From the NCBI GenBank assembly GCA_021773835.1, contig JAJFJQ010000008.1:1-64000 (forward strand): 64,000 nt of DNA. The letters are read 5' to 3'. Every line of letters begins with the position of its first letter. The first letter of the stretch is position 1. The notes under the pieces are model-generated. The model saw only the letters and a list, made by a program, of their open reading frames with translations, did no database searches and had not been told where the DNA came from. This document shows, in pieces, positions 30,643 through 43,271 of this stretch. The position numbers were made by a program, and so were the translations under genes. The DNA comes from Gammaproteobacteria bacterium. Lineage in GTDB: Bacteria; Pseudomonadota; Gammaproteobacteria; Ga0077536.

Positions 30643-31641
30643 TTAATCGTAGATAACGATACAGCGAGTCTCGATGCTCCAGCGATCAGGCGCATTAGCT
30701 GGCGTCGCCGGATCTTCAAAGGCGGTGTGAAAACTAAATGTACAGGGTGCCTGGCGGTCGCTGGAATCTGCTTCCGCCCCGTCTGATCGAGCCAAGGGCC
30801 CGGCCGAGTCCCACTGCTTGATCAAAATCGCCTCATCGCCAGTCATCTCGGGGAAGAAATACCACTGGTGACCAGGCGCATGTTTAGCGAAATAATTTTC
30901 CCCGATCCGATCTTGGTAATGGATCTCGAATACCACTAAGTCGTTCGGATCCACACTTTGGCCATCGCAAAGGGCCAACGGATGGGTTGCAACCGGTTCT
31001 TTGGCGATATTCCGCCAGACGTTGATGATCGAGAAGCGCCCACCGTCGGCAAGCGAGCGCTCGACCATGTTAGCGTCGATAAGCGATTGACCCTCACTTA
31101 GTACTGATTTAAGTGTGTCGTTGCCGCCGGGTGGCTTGGCCAAATCGCGCAGACGCTGCGGCGCGCTATAGAGCGTGTAATCACCGTGGACAACGTGGGC
31201 CGGTCCTTGCACCTGTTGCCCACCCTGGATCCGTCGCTGAGTCTCCTTTCCCGACGCTGAACGTATATTGTGATCGAACGCAAACGCTGTCGCGCCAGTT
31301 ACCTGCGAGACGATGTCCGCACAGTGTGCGTAGTACTCGCGCACAACTTGCTGATGGTCAAAAAAATCGAGACTCGGTTTTTGCAATGGCTCGGTAATTA
31401 ATTCGAAGCCGTTGGCACGGACAGTGCGGCGCTCAGCGCCATGCAAGTTTCGTCCGTTGTGCACGATCATCTCTCGGTCTTCGAGATTCACGCCCTGGGA
31501 CCCCCCATCGCTGCCGTCCGGGTCTCGGCGGGTGAGTACCTCACCATTGCGATAGAGCGACGGCTGGACCGTTGCGTCTAAGTAGTTAAACACCCCCGCC
31601 GTCGTTTCGTCGCGGAGCTGCTGTGCTGGGCTGCTATTCAT
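30643..31641 (-). CDS. CmcJ/NvfI-family oxidoreductase-like protein
   Basis: 332 residues from Met at 31641; longer starts exist at 31674 and 31698 (GTG). It matches the CmcJ/GA4-desaturase-like family: NYLDATVQPSLYRNG, DREMIVHNGRN, VVHGDYTLYSAPQRL with His-x-Asp, NVWRNIAKEPVATHPLALCD, and WYFFPEMTGDEAILIKQWDS. Relatives include a partner of cephem methoxylase and fungal meroterpenoid enzymes; several are related to Fe(II)/2-oxoglutarate-type folds. It is just upstream of the Baeyer-Villiger-type gene. Confidence 0.85.
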   Translation of the reverse strand: MNSSPAQQLRDETTAGVFNYLDATVQPSLYRNGEVLTRRDPDGSDGGSQGVNLEDREMIVHNGRNLHGAERRTVRANGFELITEPLQKPSLDFFDHQQVVREYYAHCADIVSQVTGATAFAFDHNIRSASGKETQRRIQGGQQVQGPAHVVHGDYTLYSAPQRLRDLAKPPGGNDTLKSVLSEGQSLIDANMVERSLADGGRFSIINVWRNIAKEPVATHPLALCDGQSVDPNDLVVFEIHYQDRIGENYFAKHAPGHQWYFFPEMTGDEAILIKQWDSAGPLARSDGAEADSSDRQAPCTFSFHTAFEDPATPANAPDRWSIETRCIVIYD

Positions 31642-31710
31642 GCGGAAAACCAAGTGGTCCGGAGCTGGGATCATACAGTGCTGGACAGCTTGGATCACCG
31701 GTCGGCCTGT

Positions 31711-32739
31711 TCAATATACTTTCATGCACTCGCGTACTTCATCATAGTTTGCGTTTTGTAAGTCCAGGATCCCCGCTGAATGTAGGTTGATATGTGCCTC
31801 ACCCTCCCGCTGCCATTGACCATCTATTCGACGCAGACGCCAAAGCTCGGTTCGGTAATTGGACAAATCGGTATCGTCCGATGCGCGCAGACCGAACAGC
31901 ACATCAAGCCGATCCGGCGATGCCGACGGCGGGCAGGCATAGAACGATACGATGCGCACGTCATCGATCACCGGCTGTCGATTGCCTTGGAGCGGTATCG
32001 ACGGCTCCTTATAGAACAAGTTTTCGACTTCGCCAAGCAGACTTGCACTCGCCCACTCCGGCTCGAAGCGCCCTCTATTTCTCACCTCGAGCGGCGCGCG
32101 CTCAACCCCGACGAGTTCTAGCGCACGCCCATCCGCCGTCAAGCGAAATTGGAGCTCACGCACAACGTAGCCACCGTGACGGTAGAAAGTAAACGTGAGA
32201 TCAGCAATATCAACGCCTACGAGCTCGCTGAAACCGCCGTGCTGTACGTCCGACAAGCCGAGATCCGCCTGCCACGCCGGAAAGGCTTCAAGACTATCGT
32301 CATCGAAATCAAAGATCCGCCAGTCACCAGATCCGGTGCGTACGATCAAACGTTCGGATCCGTGGCGTGATTGCGGAAAACGTAACAGTATCCGCTCTCC
32401 GGCGAGGATGACGAGGTCTTCGAGGTTGAGTTGCTCGAACGCGAGCATGGTAGTTCTATCGCCGCGTACGACACGCGGAAGCGAATTACCACCGTAGCGC
32501 TCAACGACCGATTCTGCCGCGCCGCCCGAAAGTGGTTCGAAGGTAAACGTGCTCAGATAGTTTTTTCCCCAGGTGTCGACCATCTCGATATCGATAACCA
32601 TGGTTCCATATCCCGGGAGTTCGATACGGTGATGTGTTGGCGGTGGCGCAGACATCTCACAGGCAAGTAAGGTCGCGACGCATGCTAGGCATAGGATTTG
32701 ACGGAATATCGAATTTAATCTGTTGCTAAGTGCTACCAA
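31711..32739 (-). CDS. Hypothetical lipoprotein
   Basis: About 342 residues. A signal peptide ends in the lipobox LLAC (CLACVATLLACEMSAPP). The mature part is beta-rich (many short strands such as LTFTFYRHGGYVVRELQFRL). No family recognised. The only in-frame ATG, at 32793, would overlap the divergent deformylase gene by 33 bases; TTG at 32739 removes the overlap but has no good ribosome site, so the start is uncertain. Possibly co-transcribed with the CmcJ-type gene. Confidence 0.65.
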   Translation of the reverse strand: MVALSNRLNSIFRQILCLACVATLLACEMSAPPPTHHRIELPGYGTMVIDIEMVDTWGKNYLSTFTFEPLSGGAAESVVERYGGNSLPRVVRGDRTTMLAFEQLNLEDLVILAGERILLRFPQSRHGSERLIVRTGSGDWRIFDFDDDSLEAFPAWQADLGLSDVQHGGFSELVGVDIADLTFTFYRHGGYVVRELQFRLTADGRALELVGVERAPLEVRNRGRFEPEWASASLLGEVENLFYKEPSIPLQGNRQPVIDDVRIVSFYACPPSASPDRLDVLFGLRASDDTDLSNYRTELWRLRRIDGQWQREGEAHINLHSAGILDLQNANYDEVRECMKVY

Positions 32740-32760
32740 TTTTTCGATACTCTTTCTCCT

Positions 32761-33306
32761 ATGGCAATTCGACGCATCATCCGCATGGGCCACCCGTTAT
32801 TGAGGGAGGTTGCCAGACCACTTGCCCCTGAAGAGATCGGCAGCGATGAAGTCAAACGCTTGCTCGGCGATATGGTCGATACCTTGCACGATTATGGTGG
32901 CATTGGGCTCGCCGCGCCGCAAATCGGCGAAAGCGTGCGCCTTGCGATCATCGAAATTCCGGGCGGTGCGACGCGTTATGGTGAGCTCGCACCGATGTCG
33001 CTCGGCGTGTTCATCAATCCGACAATCGAGGTCGTTGATGCGGCTGCATCCGGGTACTGGGAGGGTTGTCTATCGGTACCTGGCCTGCGCGGCTACGTAG
33101 AACGACCGCAACACATCAAAGTGCGTTATTTGAATGAACAGGGTGAAGCGCAGGAGATCGAACTCACTGGCTTTCCCGCCACTGTATTTCAACATGAATT
33201 CGATCACCTCGACGGTAAGCTATATCTCGACCGGATAAGCGATACTCGCCTGCTCGCCTTCGAGCACGAGTACGAGCGCTACCTACTACCGCAGACAGAG
33301 GGATAG
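32761..33306 (+). CDS. def: Peptide deformylase
   Basis: 181 residues. The three deformylase motifs are complete: GIGLAAPQIG (motif 1), EGCLSVPG (motif 2, Cys metal ligand), and HEFDHLDG (motif 3, HExxH-like His ligands and catalytic Glu). It removes formyl from the initiator Met using Fe2+. It stands alone, not in the usual def-fmt operon, so it may be a second copy. No clear ribosome site precedes the ATG. Confidence 0.95.
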   Translation: MAIRRIIRMGHPLLREVARPLAPEEIGSDEVKRLLGDMVDTLHDYGGIGLAAPQIGESVRLAIIEIPGGATRYGELAPMSLGVFINPTIEVVDAAASGYWEGCLSVPGLRGYVERPQHIKVRYLNEQGEAQEIELTGFPATVFQHEFDHLDGKLYLDRISDTRLLAFEHEYERYLLPQTEG

Positions 33307-33321
33307 GTTCACACCATTGGT

Positions 33322-33346
33322 TTAGGCGCCCGACTGTAGCGCCTAA
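33322..33346. terminator. Hairpin between convergent genes
   Basis: TTAGGCGC and GCGCCTAA form an 8-bp stem with a 9-base loop, overlapping the stop codon of the selenoprotein gene. It could end transcription of both the deformylase and the selenoprotein gene, although there is no U tract. Confidence 0.4.
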
Positions 33347-34440
33347 GTCGCACCCAAGGTATTGGCCGCTGACGGAAACCGGTTGATACCGAGCCGCTCG
33401 CGAAAATCCTTGCTAGGCGTCAACACCATTTCATCAACGCTGATGCCGATCGCATTGGCCGCGCGGTCGACCAAACTGAATCCCGCTGCAATAATCGAAG
33501 CGGACACGACTGCAGCTGGGCCCATGCAATCGAGTAACTGGCGACGAGCCGCGGCGAGTTGATCGAGGTCTGGCGATAGCACCGATCTGGCAAACGTCAC
33601 CAGCTCGCGACCGTGTTCCACGCCGCTGTCGAGATCGGGATCAAAGGCGCCACCGAGATTGAAGTTTTCACCTATTGCGCTACCACTCTCACGGAGGATA
33701 AAGGTGTGCCAGGTGGTTCAGTAAAAGCACTGGTTATATTCCGAGATTTTCGCCGCAACAATTTCGATTTGCGGTCTCGTTAAGGCTTCGTGGGTGCTTA
33801 AAGTGAAGTCGCCGATCGTCTCACCGGAAAAATACTCCTGGTCCATGATCGCAATTAGCCGGCGCGCTTCTTCGGGGACCAGACTTAAGGATCGCAAGAT
33901 ATTGGGTGCCGGATTTTTTCCAAACAAAGATTCGGCCAGCACGCCACCCTCCGGCCAATTCGGAACAGTGGCGGTAAAGTAGCCCTCGCGTTTCGCTTCT
34001 ACTGGTCGTTCGCGCGATGGTTCCGTGTCATCCACCGGCTCCGCCAGTTTTCTCGACGGCACGCCAATGCCACGGGCGAATACATCGAGGTGCGCGAGCC
34101 GCGCGACCAAACCGACAATCTCAACATAGGCGCCTTCCGTCACCCCCTCTGCTTGTACTTGCGTGCAAAACGCTCGGTCGATACCGATGCCGCCGAGCGC
34201 TACAGCGCTCGCGACTCGAACTGCTGCGTCCGGCAAATTACCCAACGACGCCAGTTCTTCATCACCGACCGACTCTTGCACACACGTATCGCACCGGGCC
34301 TTGCGTGCTGTGGCTGCAATTGCGGTTCGTTGCGCCGCTGTCCCCCACGTGCCGGGACGCGCAAAGGAACGGAGTTGGTCCGCATGTAGTGTCTCGGTGT
34401 GGGCTGAGACCGGATATTCGGCGTCTGCGTAGAGACTCAT
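33343..34440 (-). CDS. AhpD-type selenoprotein (in-frame UGA = Sec241)
   Basis: 365 residues if TGA at 33720-33718 is read as Sec. The frame is open on both sides for 240 and 124 codons. The junction is E226-x11-C238-x2-Sec241-x3-H245 (SEYNQCFY-Sec-TTWH), exactly the AhpD/carboxymuconolactone-decarboxylase-like signature E-x11-C-x2-C-x3-H with Sec in place of the second, peroxidatic Cys. The N-terminal half looks like a degenerate AhpD repeat (GTAAQRTAIAATARKARCDTC). Expected role: selenium-dependent peroxide reduction or a related thiol reaction. GGGGATAGG precedes the start. Naive annotation splits it at 33718. Confidence 0.9.
33682..33717 (-). promoter_or_regulatory. Possible SECIS structure, weak
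   Basis: Immediately after the UGA, ACCAC can pair with GUGGU, with an inner CAC/GUG pairing and a loop of about 13 bases. Bulges make it much less convincing than the UGSC hairpin; other folds are possible. Confidence 0.35.
33718..33720 (-). other. Selenocysteine codon (UGA)
   Basis: In-frame TGA in the AhpD active-site signature. The 124 following codons are open, keep the conserved His four residues later and contain the rest of the domain. Confidence 0.85.
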
Positions 34441-40791: not shown

Positions 40792-41012
40792 GGCATTGAG
40801 ACCATTAAGATTACGTCTGCCTTCAGTATAGAACTTTCGTCGCCTGTGTTCTGCCGGGTCAATACATTGGAGAACGCCTAGCACTATCGATGTTCGGTCG
40901 ATCGTCCCAGGGTTCCTCCTAGGCCTTGACGCCGCCGCGCTCGCCTATAGACGTGCAGGACCACTGGCGCTTTGGTAGGCTGCCTTCTGTCCAAACTGTT
41001 TGGAGCCACCAA

Positions 41013-43271
41013 ATGTCCGAATGGCACGCAACCGCCTGCATGTTGTGCGAGAACAATTGCGGCATTGAAGTAAAGCTGAGCGACGATGGTCGCCGCATCG
41101 AAAAGGTGCGCGGCGACGCAGCGCACCCCGCCTCCAAGGGCTACTTGTGCCAGAAGGCATCACGCATCGATCTCTATCAAAACGGCCCCGCCCGTGTGAC
41201 CCACCCACTACGACGAACTGCCGACGGCGACTACGAACGAGTCGACTGGGACACCGCGATCAAAGAAGTTGCCGCGCGCCTTGCGGCCGTTCGGGACGAA
41301 TACGGTGGTGACAAAGTTTTCTACTTCGGCGGTGGCGGTCAAGGTAATCACCTACCCGGCGCCTACGGGGTTAGTACGCAGTCTGCACTTGGTGGGATCT
41401 ACCGCTCCAATGCGCTAGCGCAAGAAAAGACCGGCGAAGCCTGGGTCGCCGCCTCGATGTTCGGCGCTTACGTGCGTACAGGGGATTTCGACAATTGCGA
41501 GGTGGCCGTATTCATCGGTAAAAACCCATGGCATTCACACGGGGTAAACCGTGCGCGGATTACCTTGCACGAGATTGCGAAGGACCCCGAACGTACGCTT
41601 GTCGTATTCGATCCGCGGGTTTCCGAAACCGCCGAACTCGCCGACTTCCACATTCAACTAAAACCCGGCACCGACGCTTGGGTACTCGCAGCTTTGATTG
41701 CCATCATCCTCGAGGAAAATATCGCGCACGATGATTGGATCGCAGAACATGTGAGCGGCTTCGATAGTGTCCGCCCATTGTTTGATCGTGTGGCGGTCGC
41801 ACAATATTGCGAATGGAGCGGCGTAGATGAGACCCAGTTACGGCTTCTTGCGCGACGCTTGGCGGGAGCGAAAAGTGTCGCATGGTACGAGGATCTCGGG
41901 GTGCAGATGAATCGCCACTCGACGCTGGTTAGCTACATCCACCGTCTCGCTTGGCTGGTTACCGGTAGCTTTGGCAAAGCCGGCTCTCAATTTGTGATCA
42001 ATCCTTTACGCCCGTTGGTGAATAGCAACCCCAGCCTTGCCCGAAAATCACCAGTTGCCGACAAACCGCTGCTTGGCAACCTGGTGCCGTGCAACGTGAT
42101 CGCAGAAGAAATTCTGTCGGGCCATCCGGATCGTTATCGCGCGATGATTATCGAGACTGCCAACCCCGCACATTCGCTTGCCGATTCCGGCAAGTTTATC
42201 GAAGCGATGCGTAAACTCGACTTCAGTGTTGTGATCGATGTTGCCATGACCGAGACCGCGCGGCATGCCGATTACATTCTGCCAACCGCGACCCAGTACG
42301 AAAAGGCCGAGGCCACGTTTTTCAACTTCGAGTTCCCTCACAACTATTTTCACTTGCGCCACCCGATTATGGCCCCACCGGCCGACGCCGATGTCTTAAC
42401 CGAAGCAGAGATCCACGCACGCATTATCGAAGAGCTCGGTGAGATGCCCGAGGAAGTCGAAGGCTTGCGTAAAACGCTGGAACATCAAGGCCGCGAGGCC
42501 TTCGCGCAGGCGTTCAATGTTGCCCAAGCGAATAACCCGGCTGTACGCCGGCTTGCCCCGGTGGTGTTGTACCGGTCGCTCGGCGCTTGTCTGCCAGAGA
42601 ACGTCGCCCCCGCTGCGGCGCTATGGGGTGTTGCCCATTTTGTCGCGCAACGCGAGCCCGGCGCACTGCAACGTGCCGGACTTGAAGGTGAAGGTAGCAC
42701 CCTTGGCGACGCATTATTTAATCGCATCATCGACAGCCCCCGGGGTTTCACCTTCTCGGTTGATGAATACGAGATGTCGTGGGAGCGCGTGCGTACCGCC
42801 GATGGGCGTATCAATGCGAAGGTCGAGCATCTCATTTCAAGTATCGAGGATCTCGCCAACGGACCGCAGGCGATCACGAGTCCGGAATATCCATTCGTAT
42901 TGTCGGCCGGTGAACGTCGTGCCTATACCGCCAATACGATATTTCGTGATCCGGATTGGCGTAGAAAAGACCGCGACGGTGCGCTCCGGATGTGTCCCGC
43001 AGATGCCGCACGCTTGTCGTTAAATGACGGCGACGTCGCCAAACTCAGCACCGTAAGCGGTCATACAGAAGTTGTGGTGGAGATCTCCGAACGCATGCAA
43101 CCGGGACATGTCTCTCTACCGAATGGTATGGGCTTAGATAATGCCAGCGGTGCGGGCAAGTTATCACGCGTTGGAACGGCACCGAATGAACTTACCGCAT
43201 CCGGGCATCGAGATTTTTTCGCCGGCACCCCATGGCATAAGATGGTACCAGCGCAGATCGAAGCGGCATGA
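41013..43271 (+). CDS. Molybdopterin-dependent oxidoreductase
   Basis: 752 residues from Met at 41013 (GGAG upstream). The N-terminal 4Fe-4S site is CMLCENNC with a distant GYLCQKA. The Moco domains include VFIGKNPWHSHG, LVVFDPRVSETAELADFHIQLKPGTDAW, RHADYILPTATQYEKAEAT and the C-terminal dinucleotide-binding domain (LSAGERRAYTANTIFRDPDWR). No Cys or Sec metal ligand is obvious in the expected loop (SNALAQEKTGEAWV). A stand-alone catalytic subunit of the formate-dehydrogenase/nitrate-reductase superfamily; the substrate is unknown. Confidence 0.92.
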   Translation: MSEWHATACMLCENNCGIEVKLSDDGRRIEKVRGDAAHPASKGYLCQKASRIDLYQNGPARVTHPLRRTADGDYERVDWDTAIKEVAARLAAVRDEYGGDKVFYFGGGGQGNHLPGAYGVSTQSALGGIYRSNALAQEKTGEAWVAASMFGAYVRTGDFDNCEVAVFIGKNPWHSHGVNRARITLHEIAKDPERTLVVFDPRVSETAELADFHIQLKPGTDAWVLAALIAIILEENIAHDDWIAEHVSGFDSVRPLFDRVAVAQYCEWSGVDETQLRLLARRLAGAKSVAWYEDLGVQMNRHSTLVSYIHRLAWLVTGSFGKAGSQFVINPLRPLVNSNPSLARKSPVADKPLLGNLVPCNVIAEEILSGHPDRYRAMIIETANPAHSLADSGKFIEAMRKLDFSVVIDVAMTETARHADYILPTATQYEKAEATFFNFEFPHNYFHLRHPIMAPPADADVLTEAEIHARIIEELGEMPEEVEGLRKTLEHQGREAFAQAFNVAQANNPAVRRLAPVVLYRSLGACLPENVAPAAALWGVAHFVAQREPGALQRAGLEGEGSTLGDALFNRIIDSPRGFTFSVDEYEMSWERVRTADGRINAKVEHLISSIEDLANGPQAITSPEYPFVLSAGERRAYTANTIFRDPDWRRKDRDGALRMCPADAARLSLNDGDVAKLSTVSGHTEVVVEISERMQPGHVSLPNGMGLDNASGAGKLSRVGTAPNELTASGHRDFFAGTPWHKMVPAQIEAA

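Follow-up and report, generated by a model that had tools for sequence, protein, structure and literature searches.

RESULTS

The gene and its family

The window analyzed here is a whole stretch of 64,000 nucleotides (positions 1 to 64,000 of contig JAJFJQ010000008.1, GenBank assembly GCA_021773835.1), and its minus strand carries at 33343-34440 a complete selenoprotein gene that begins with ATG, ends with TAG, and encodes a product of 365 residues. With TGA read as selenocysteine (Sec), translation of this frame encountered one internal stop-like codon, the TGA at codon 241 (33720-33718), at which a standard ORF list ends an ORF of 240 residues; the preliminary description had joined two minus-strand frames across this codon, and the joint frame was recovered as proposed. 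The product contains the motif E226-x11-C238-x2-U241-x3-H245, including the segment C238-F-Y-U241-T (CFYUT), in which U is encoded by the in-frame TGA. This is the AhpD signature with Sec in place of the second Cys, as had been read from the letters, and translation, the family profile, and the predicted fold described below all agree with it. The initial observation of a read-through AhpD-type selenoprotein is therefore confirmed.

Elsewhere in the window, two minus-strand ORFs at 30643-31698 and 31711-32793, of 351 and 360 codons, respectively, gave no Pfam match. The latter overlaps the start of a divergent peptide deformylase gene on the plus strand (32761-33306), so the true start probably lies downstream of the GTG that is listed. 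A plus-strand gene at 40926-43271 for a molybdopterin oxidoreductase with an Fe4S4 domain lacks in-frame TGA codons; its genome is Sec capable.

By profile search, the product matched NF041238 (AhpD_rel_CFYUT, titled 'alkylhydroperoxidase-related (seleno)protein') with an E value of 4.7e-92 and a score of 309 bits against the curated cut-off of 175 bits, in one alignment over residues 12-356 that covers profile positions 2-356 of 357. Because this single alignment runs across the TGA, homology is continuous through codon 241 rather than lost after it. The Pfam CMD profile (PF02627) scored 16.2 bits, below its gathering cut-off of 23, so that by sequence the product is AhpD related rather than a PF02627 member, and TIGR01926 was reached weakly (26.7 bits versus a cut-off of 81.8).

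The gene is a further member of a catalogued family, not a new selenoprotein type: it shares with NF041238 the CxxU motif, the Sec position, and a full-length match, and no defining difference was seen. A CXXU family was reported in 2005 in the Sargasso Sea selenoproteome as 'hypothetical protein 1' (PMC1088965), and a 2026 review lists NF041238 and equates the two (PMC13188914). The AhpD-like 1, AhpD-like 2, and CMD-domain selenoproteins (PMC2398784, PMC13188914) also have CxxU at an AhpD-type active site but are catalogued as families apart from NF041238 (COG2128, pfam02627, and TIGR01926). No biochemical test of any NF041238 member was found in our literature search.

Selenocysteine decoding

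The genome to which the window belongs (6.1 Mb, 98% complete) encodes the complete Sec machinery, with selA, selB, and the tRNA-Sec gene selC (anticodon TCA) clustered at 431451-434935 of one contig (C47) and selD on another (C55). It has three paralogs including the window gene, the other two being full length with one TGA each; this copy number, and the lack in the window's branch of an N-terminal CxxC that distant members have (see below), are differences within NF041238 rather than defining ones. Within the window's order, the family was found in 13 of 36 genomes; every copy has the TGA, and selA is present in all 13. In five genomes of the sister genus g278 (loci L102, L103, L105, L106, and L107 of genomes G395-G399), the selenoprotein gene precedes selA in the same orientation, its profile match ending about 80 bp before the selA start, an arrangement suggesting co-transcription of a selenoprotein gene with the Sec machinery. 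The window's genome also encodes (contig C67, 75708-76142) an AhpD-like protein of the ordinary kind, with one module and Cys (CFYC), which offers a natural counterpart to set beside the Sec enzyme.

Sixty-three loci came from 84,980 scanned species genomes, and after removal of duplicates and addition of the copies from the window's order, 74 distinct sequences were obtained, with relatives from several phyla. Of these, 73 have TGA and one has TGC at codon 241. Real stops at this codon in many relatives would, by the preliminary description, have refuted the reading; among the relatives found there were none. Downstream of the TGA, comparison with the closest homolog (75% identical) gave a dN/dS of 0.11, which indicates that purifying selection acts past this codon. 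The profile match across the TGA, this dN/dS value, and the near-universal TGA together exclude chance. When the class and the phylum were sampled evenly, the family was above cut-off in the window's own genome only, so it is a rare family.

Two of the relatives deserve mention for their origin. A contig of Fictibacillus nanhaiensis (6001-6918 of L092) holds a diverged Sec member in Bacillota, with the TGA and the same hairpin as described below, pointing to horizontal transfer or wide ancestry. A second member, from a record titled as a Klebsiella pneumoniae MAG (L067), resembles betaproteobacterial ones, and the bin label is probably wrong.

The SECIS-like hairpin

We searched for a recoding signal downstream of the UGA and found a SECIS-like hairpin at 33681-33700 (minus strand), with the core CUC-CGUGA-GAG and, in the window copy, a bulged U36. 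Counted from the T of the TGA, the stretch from 25 to 35 is CTCCGTGAGAG, or a close variant of it, in 71 of 71 sequences, and the core pairs 25:35, 26:34, and 27:33 are formed in every one of them. The apical loop begins 24 nt after the UGA and is CGUGN or CGGGN, with G second; in the window copy it is CGUGA with G at position 2. The published bacterial SECIS model asks for a G in the first two loop positions, a loop of 3-9 nt, a spacing of 16-37 nt, and an upper stem of 4-16 bp (PMC13188914). The loop and spacing of the window hairpin agree with this model, and its stem extends beyond 3 bp only with U36 bulged. The pattern occurs once in the window.

Synonymous codon use across 70 sequences singled out the same site. 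Among 40 conserved degenerate columns, the three most frozen codons, Leu249 (CTC in 63, CTT in 7), Arg250 (CGT in 60, CGG in 10), and Ser252 (AGC or AGT only), all lie in the hairpin. Moreover, pair 27:33, both of whose members are silent (third positions of codons 249 and 251), covaries with no exceptions, being C27:G33 in 64 sequences and T27:A33 in 7; the seven T:A sequences all belong to a single taxonomic family and thus count as few independent events. The sole Cys member found (L097, 5922-7100), which has a frame break at about 6565, upstream of the TGC codon in the record, replaces the otherwise invariant Leu-Arg and following Ser with Met-Tyr-Gln-Val-Thr-Ser; in this single case, loss of Leu-Arg-x-Ser is as expected if an RNA signal holds those residues in the Sec members.

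Global hairpin energy, tried as further evidence for a SECIS, proved uninformative. The local hairpin has an energy of -3.2 to -4.4 kcal/mol, against a SECIS criterion of -7.5 kcal/mol or lower, while the -9.7 kcal/mol obtained for 55 nt belongs to a different fold and is no better than shuffles. Global folding energy was likewise no better than chance in the window (z of -0.35) and across the family (mean z of -0.39 against recoding, similar to control stretches), and an Rfam search of the window returned no match. The case for a SECIS consequently rests on codon freezing and covariation. Altogether, the sequence comparisons indicate that this is almost certainly a functional NF041238 selenoprotein, in which the hairpin 24 nt downstream would direct the organism's own SelA/SelB/SelC/SelD to read UGA 241 as Sec.

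Predicted fold and active site

An AlphaFold2 model of the product, built with 25 family members in the alignment and with Sec read as Cys, reached a pLDDT of 94.7 and a pTM of 0.94. In the C-terminal module (residues 151-345; 33406-33990, minus strand), helices 222-235 and 239-255 carry the active site, forming a catalytic hairpin over residues 222-255 (33676-33777, minus strand) on which E226, C238, U241, and H245 are placed; the geometry of the last three is what the preliminary description had proposed to check in a model. This module matched the AhpD-like structures 6k40, 2oyo, and 2prr with a Z of about 13 and the debrominase Bmp8 (6ohi) with a Z of 12.9.

Among 70 full-length members, Glu226, Cys238, Sec241, and His245 are invariant and Tyr240 is present in 69. 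These residues correspond to the AhpD relay of Glu118, Cys130, Cys133, and His137, and Tyr240 takes the place of AhpD His132 as Tyr does in PA0269 (PMC3141380). Mycobacterium tuberculosis AhpD (1knc, 1gu9) thus has in common with the window product the relay Glu-x11-Cys-x2-[Cys/Sec]-x3-His, and its fold is shared with each module (Z of 10.4 for the C-terminal and 7.8 for the N-terminal one); it differs in being a single module, with Cys for Sec and with His rather than Tyr just before the second Cys. Cys occupies the Sec position in AhpD-like structures as well as in the TGC homolog above.

The N-terminal 150 residues (33991-34440, minus strand), modeled alone, gave a pLDDT of 93.1, and the top 17 solved matches were all of AhpD/CMD type, with Z scores of 7.3-8.9, which are modest for helical proteins, before a fall to 4.1 at the next match. 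It is the uniform identity of these 17 matches and the clear drop after them that assign this module to the AhpD fold. Over the full length, the best solved match was human Sestrin2, with a Z of 17.1 and an rmsd of 3.4 over 248 residues at 11% identity. The earlier suggestion of a two-module protein is borne out by the predicted fold and by this match; according to the models, the product very probably consists of two fused AhpD-fold modules with the active site in the C-terminal one, the N-terminal one serving in the window's branch as a noncatalytic partner.

The comparison with Sestrin2 also reveals a reversal. Both proteins have two AhpD-like modules in one chain, but Sestrin2 relies on Cys125 of the N-terminal domain and no longer has a C-terminal helix-turn-helix (PMC4674687), whereas the window product has its site, with Sec, in the C-terminal module and keeps both helices. 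In Sestrins, the C-terminal helix-turn-helix has become an electronegative hinge (PMC11429811), a feature that the model of the window product lacks, helices 222-235 and 239-255 being predicted in its stead. Sestrin analogues have been described among bacteria as well (PMC11429811): these are fused two-domain AhpD proteins whose two Cys are confined to the C-terminal domain, and like the window product they have an active site there only.

The preliminary description had further taken the N-terminal half for a degenerate AhpD module. The AhpD fold stands, given the structural matches. The window's own CDTC (C50, C53) was rejected as a second active site: it is private to this one gene, close relatives lack it, and its register is shifted by one residue relative to the CxxC that distant members have. 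An N-terminal CxxC followed a few residues on by S-P was found in 37 of 70 members, all of them distant, and not in the window's branch; the TGC homolog retains this CxxC, followed by I-S-P. An invariant Arg38 lies 12 residues before Cys50, just as Glu226 lies 12 before Cys238 in the catalytic module. A speculative reading, to which we give limited credence, is that in an ancestor an N-terminal redox CxxC relayed electrons within the chain to the C-terminal CxxU, that many distant members keep both, and that the window's branch lost the first, its N-terminal module turning into a structural or regulatory partner; such a bacterial Sestrin-like selenoenzyme lineage would be the mirror of Sestrins.

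DISCUSSION

The results are best explained as a whole, with a probability of roughly 0.6, by an NF041238 selenoprotein of two AhpD modules that would perform Sec-based hydroperoxide reduction. By analogy with AhpD-fold enzymes, selenol-based reduction of hydroperoxides or disulfides is likely. We infer that the Sec241 selenolate, set in the AhpD relay of Glu226, Tyr240, and His245, would reduce an organic hydroperoxide, that the resulting selenenic acid would form a selenenylsulfide with Cys238, and that this Cys238-Sec241 bond would be reset by a cellular dithiol. A selenol is expected to raise direct peroxide reactivity. Among relatives of the fold, Sestrin2 reduces alkyl hydroperoxide (PMC4674687).

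The preliminary description had placed Sec at the peroxidatic Cys. That Sec sits at the second AhpD Cys holds, while the word 'peroxidatic' applies by analogy only: the bond to AhpC is made by Cys133 in the M. tuberculosis AhpD (PMC6626918), but in its Burkholderia thailandensis counterpart the more important residue is the first Cys (PMC6626918), which is also the only one that Sestrin2 has and the one that matters there (PMC4674687). In view of these two cases, a peroxidatic role for Sec241 is likely rather than established.

The Sec241 site may instead act mainly as a reductant of peroxiredoxin rather than as a peroxidase itself. In its general form, this alternative holds that the protein is chiefly a selenol-disulfide oxidoreductase, an AhpD-like adaptor that takes electrons from dithiols of the lipoyl or thioredoxin type, hands them to another protein, and itself has little activity as a peroxidase. 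We regard it as the less likely account, though one to be taken seriously, since AhpD of M. tuberculosis and of B. thailandensis is mainly an electron donor of AhpC via its CxxC (PMC6626918), the AhpD-like PA0269 has weak peroxidase activity (PMC3141380), and CxxU resembles thioredoxin-like redox motifs. Against it, no gene for AhpC or another partner was recognised adjoining the window gene, and the heightened peroxide reactivity expected of a selenol favors direct reduction. Gene neighbors were considered as a clue to function and set aside; no neighbor is conserved outside the genus among the relatives compared, so gene context gives no substrate or reductant.

Other chemistry at the Sec site, such as reductive dehalogenation, appears improbable. 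Deiodinases are a known instance of dehalogenation by a selenol, and the AhpD-fold debrominase Bmp8 ranks with the solved structures closest to the catalytic module; however, Bmp8 scores no better there than ordinary AhpD-like structures, and the surroundings of the gene showed no recognisable linked halogen metabolism. Finally, a reading of the TGA as a genuine stop or as the lesion of a pseudogene, with the downstream frame a relic, as the 240-residue ORF of the standard list would have it, is practically ruled out by the same TGA in nearly all distinct relatives, the low dN/dS after it, the complete Sec machinery, and the codon freezing and covariation in the hairpin.

With respect to earlier knowledge, what is added for the proposed NF041238 selenoperoxidase is the two-module Sestrin-like fold, the N-terminal CxxC lost or retained, and the silent SECIS covariation. 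Earlier work does not appear to describe a two-module, Sestrin-like shape for NF041238; our literature search found no paper linking the family to Sestrin, and the one paper there that names NF041238 is silent on Sestrin, a weak absence given that subscription papers lay mostly outside the search.

The gene is a clear case of one that standard annotation would truncate, with a recoding signal resolved by silent covariation. The poorly known 'hypothetical protein 1' of 2005 is now given a predicted fold, a geometry for its active site, and chemistry that can be tested. Because Sec is kept almost exclusively, the family is a useful system for asking why Cys does not replace Sec.
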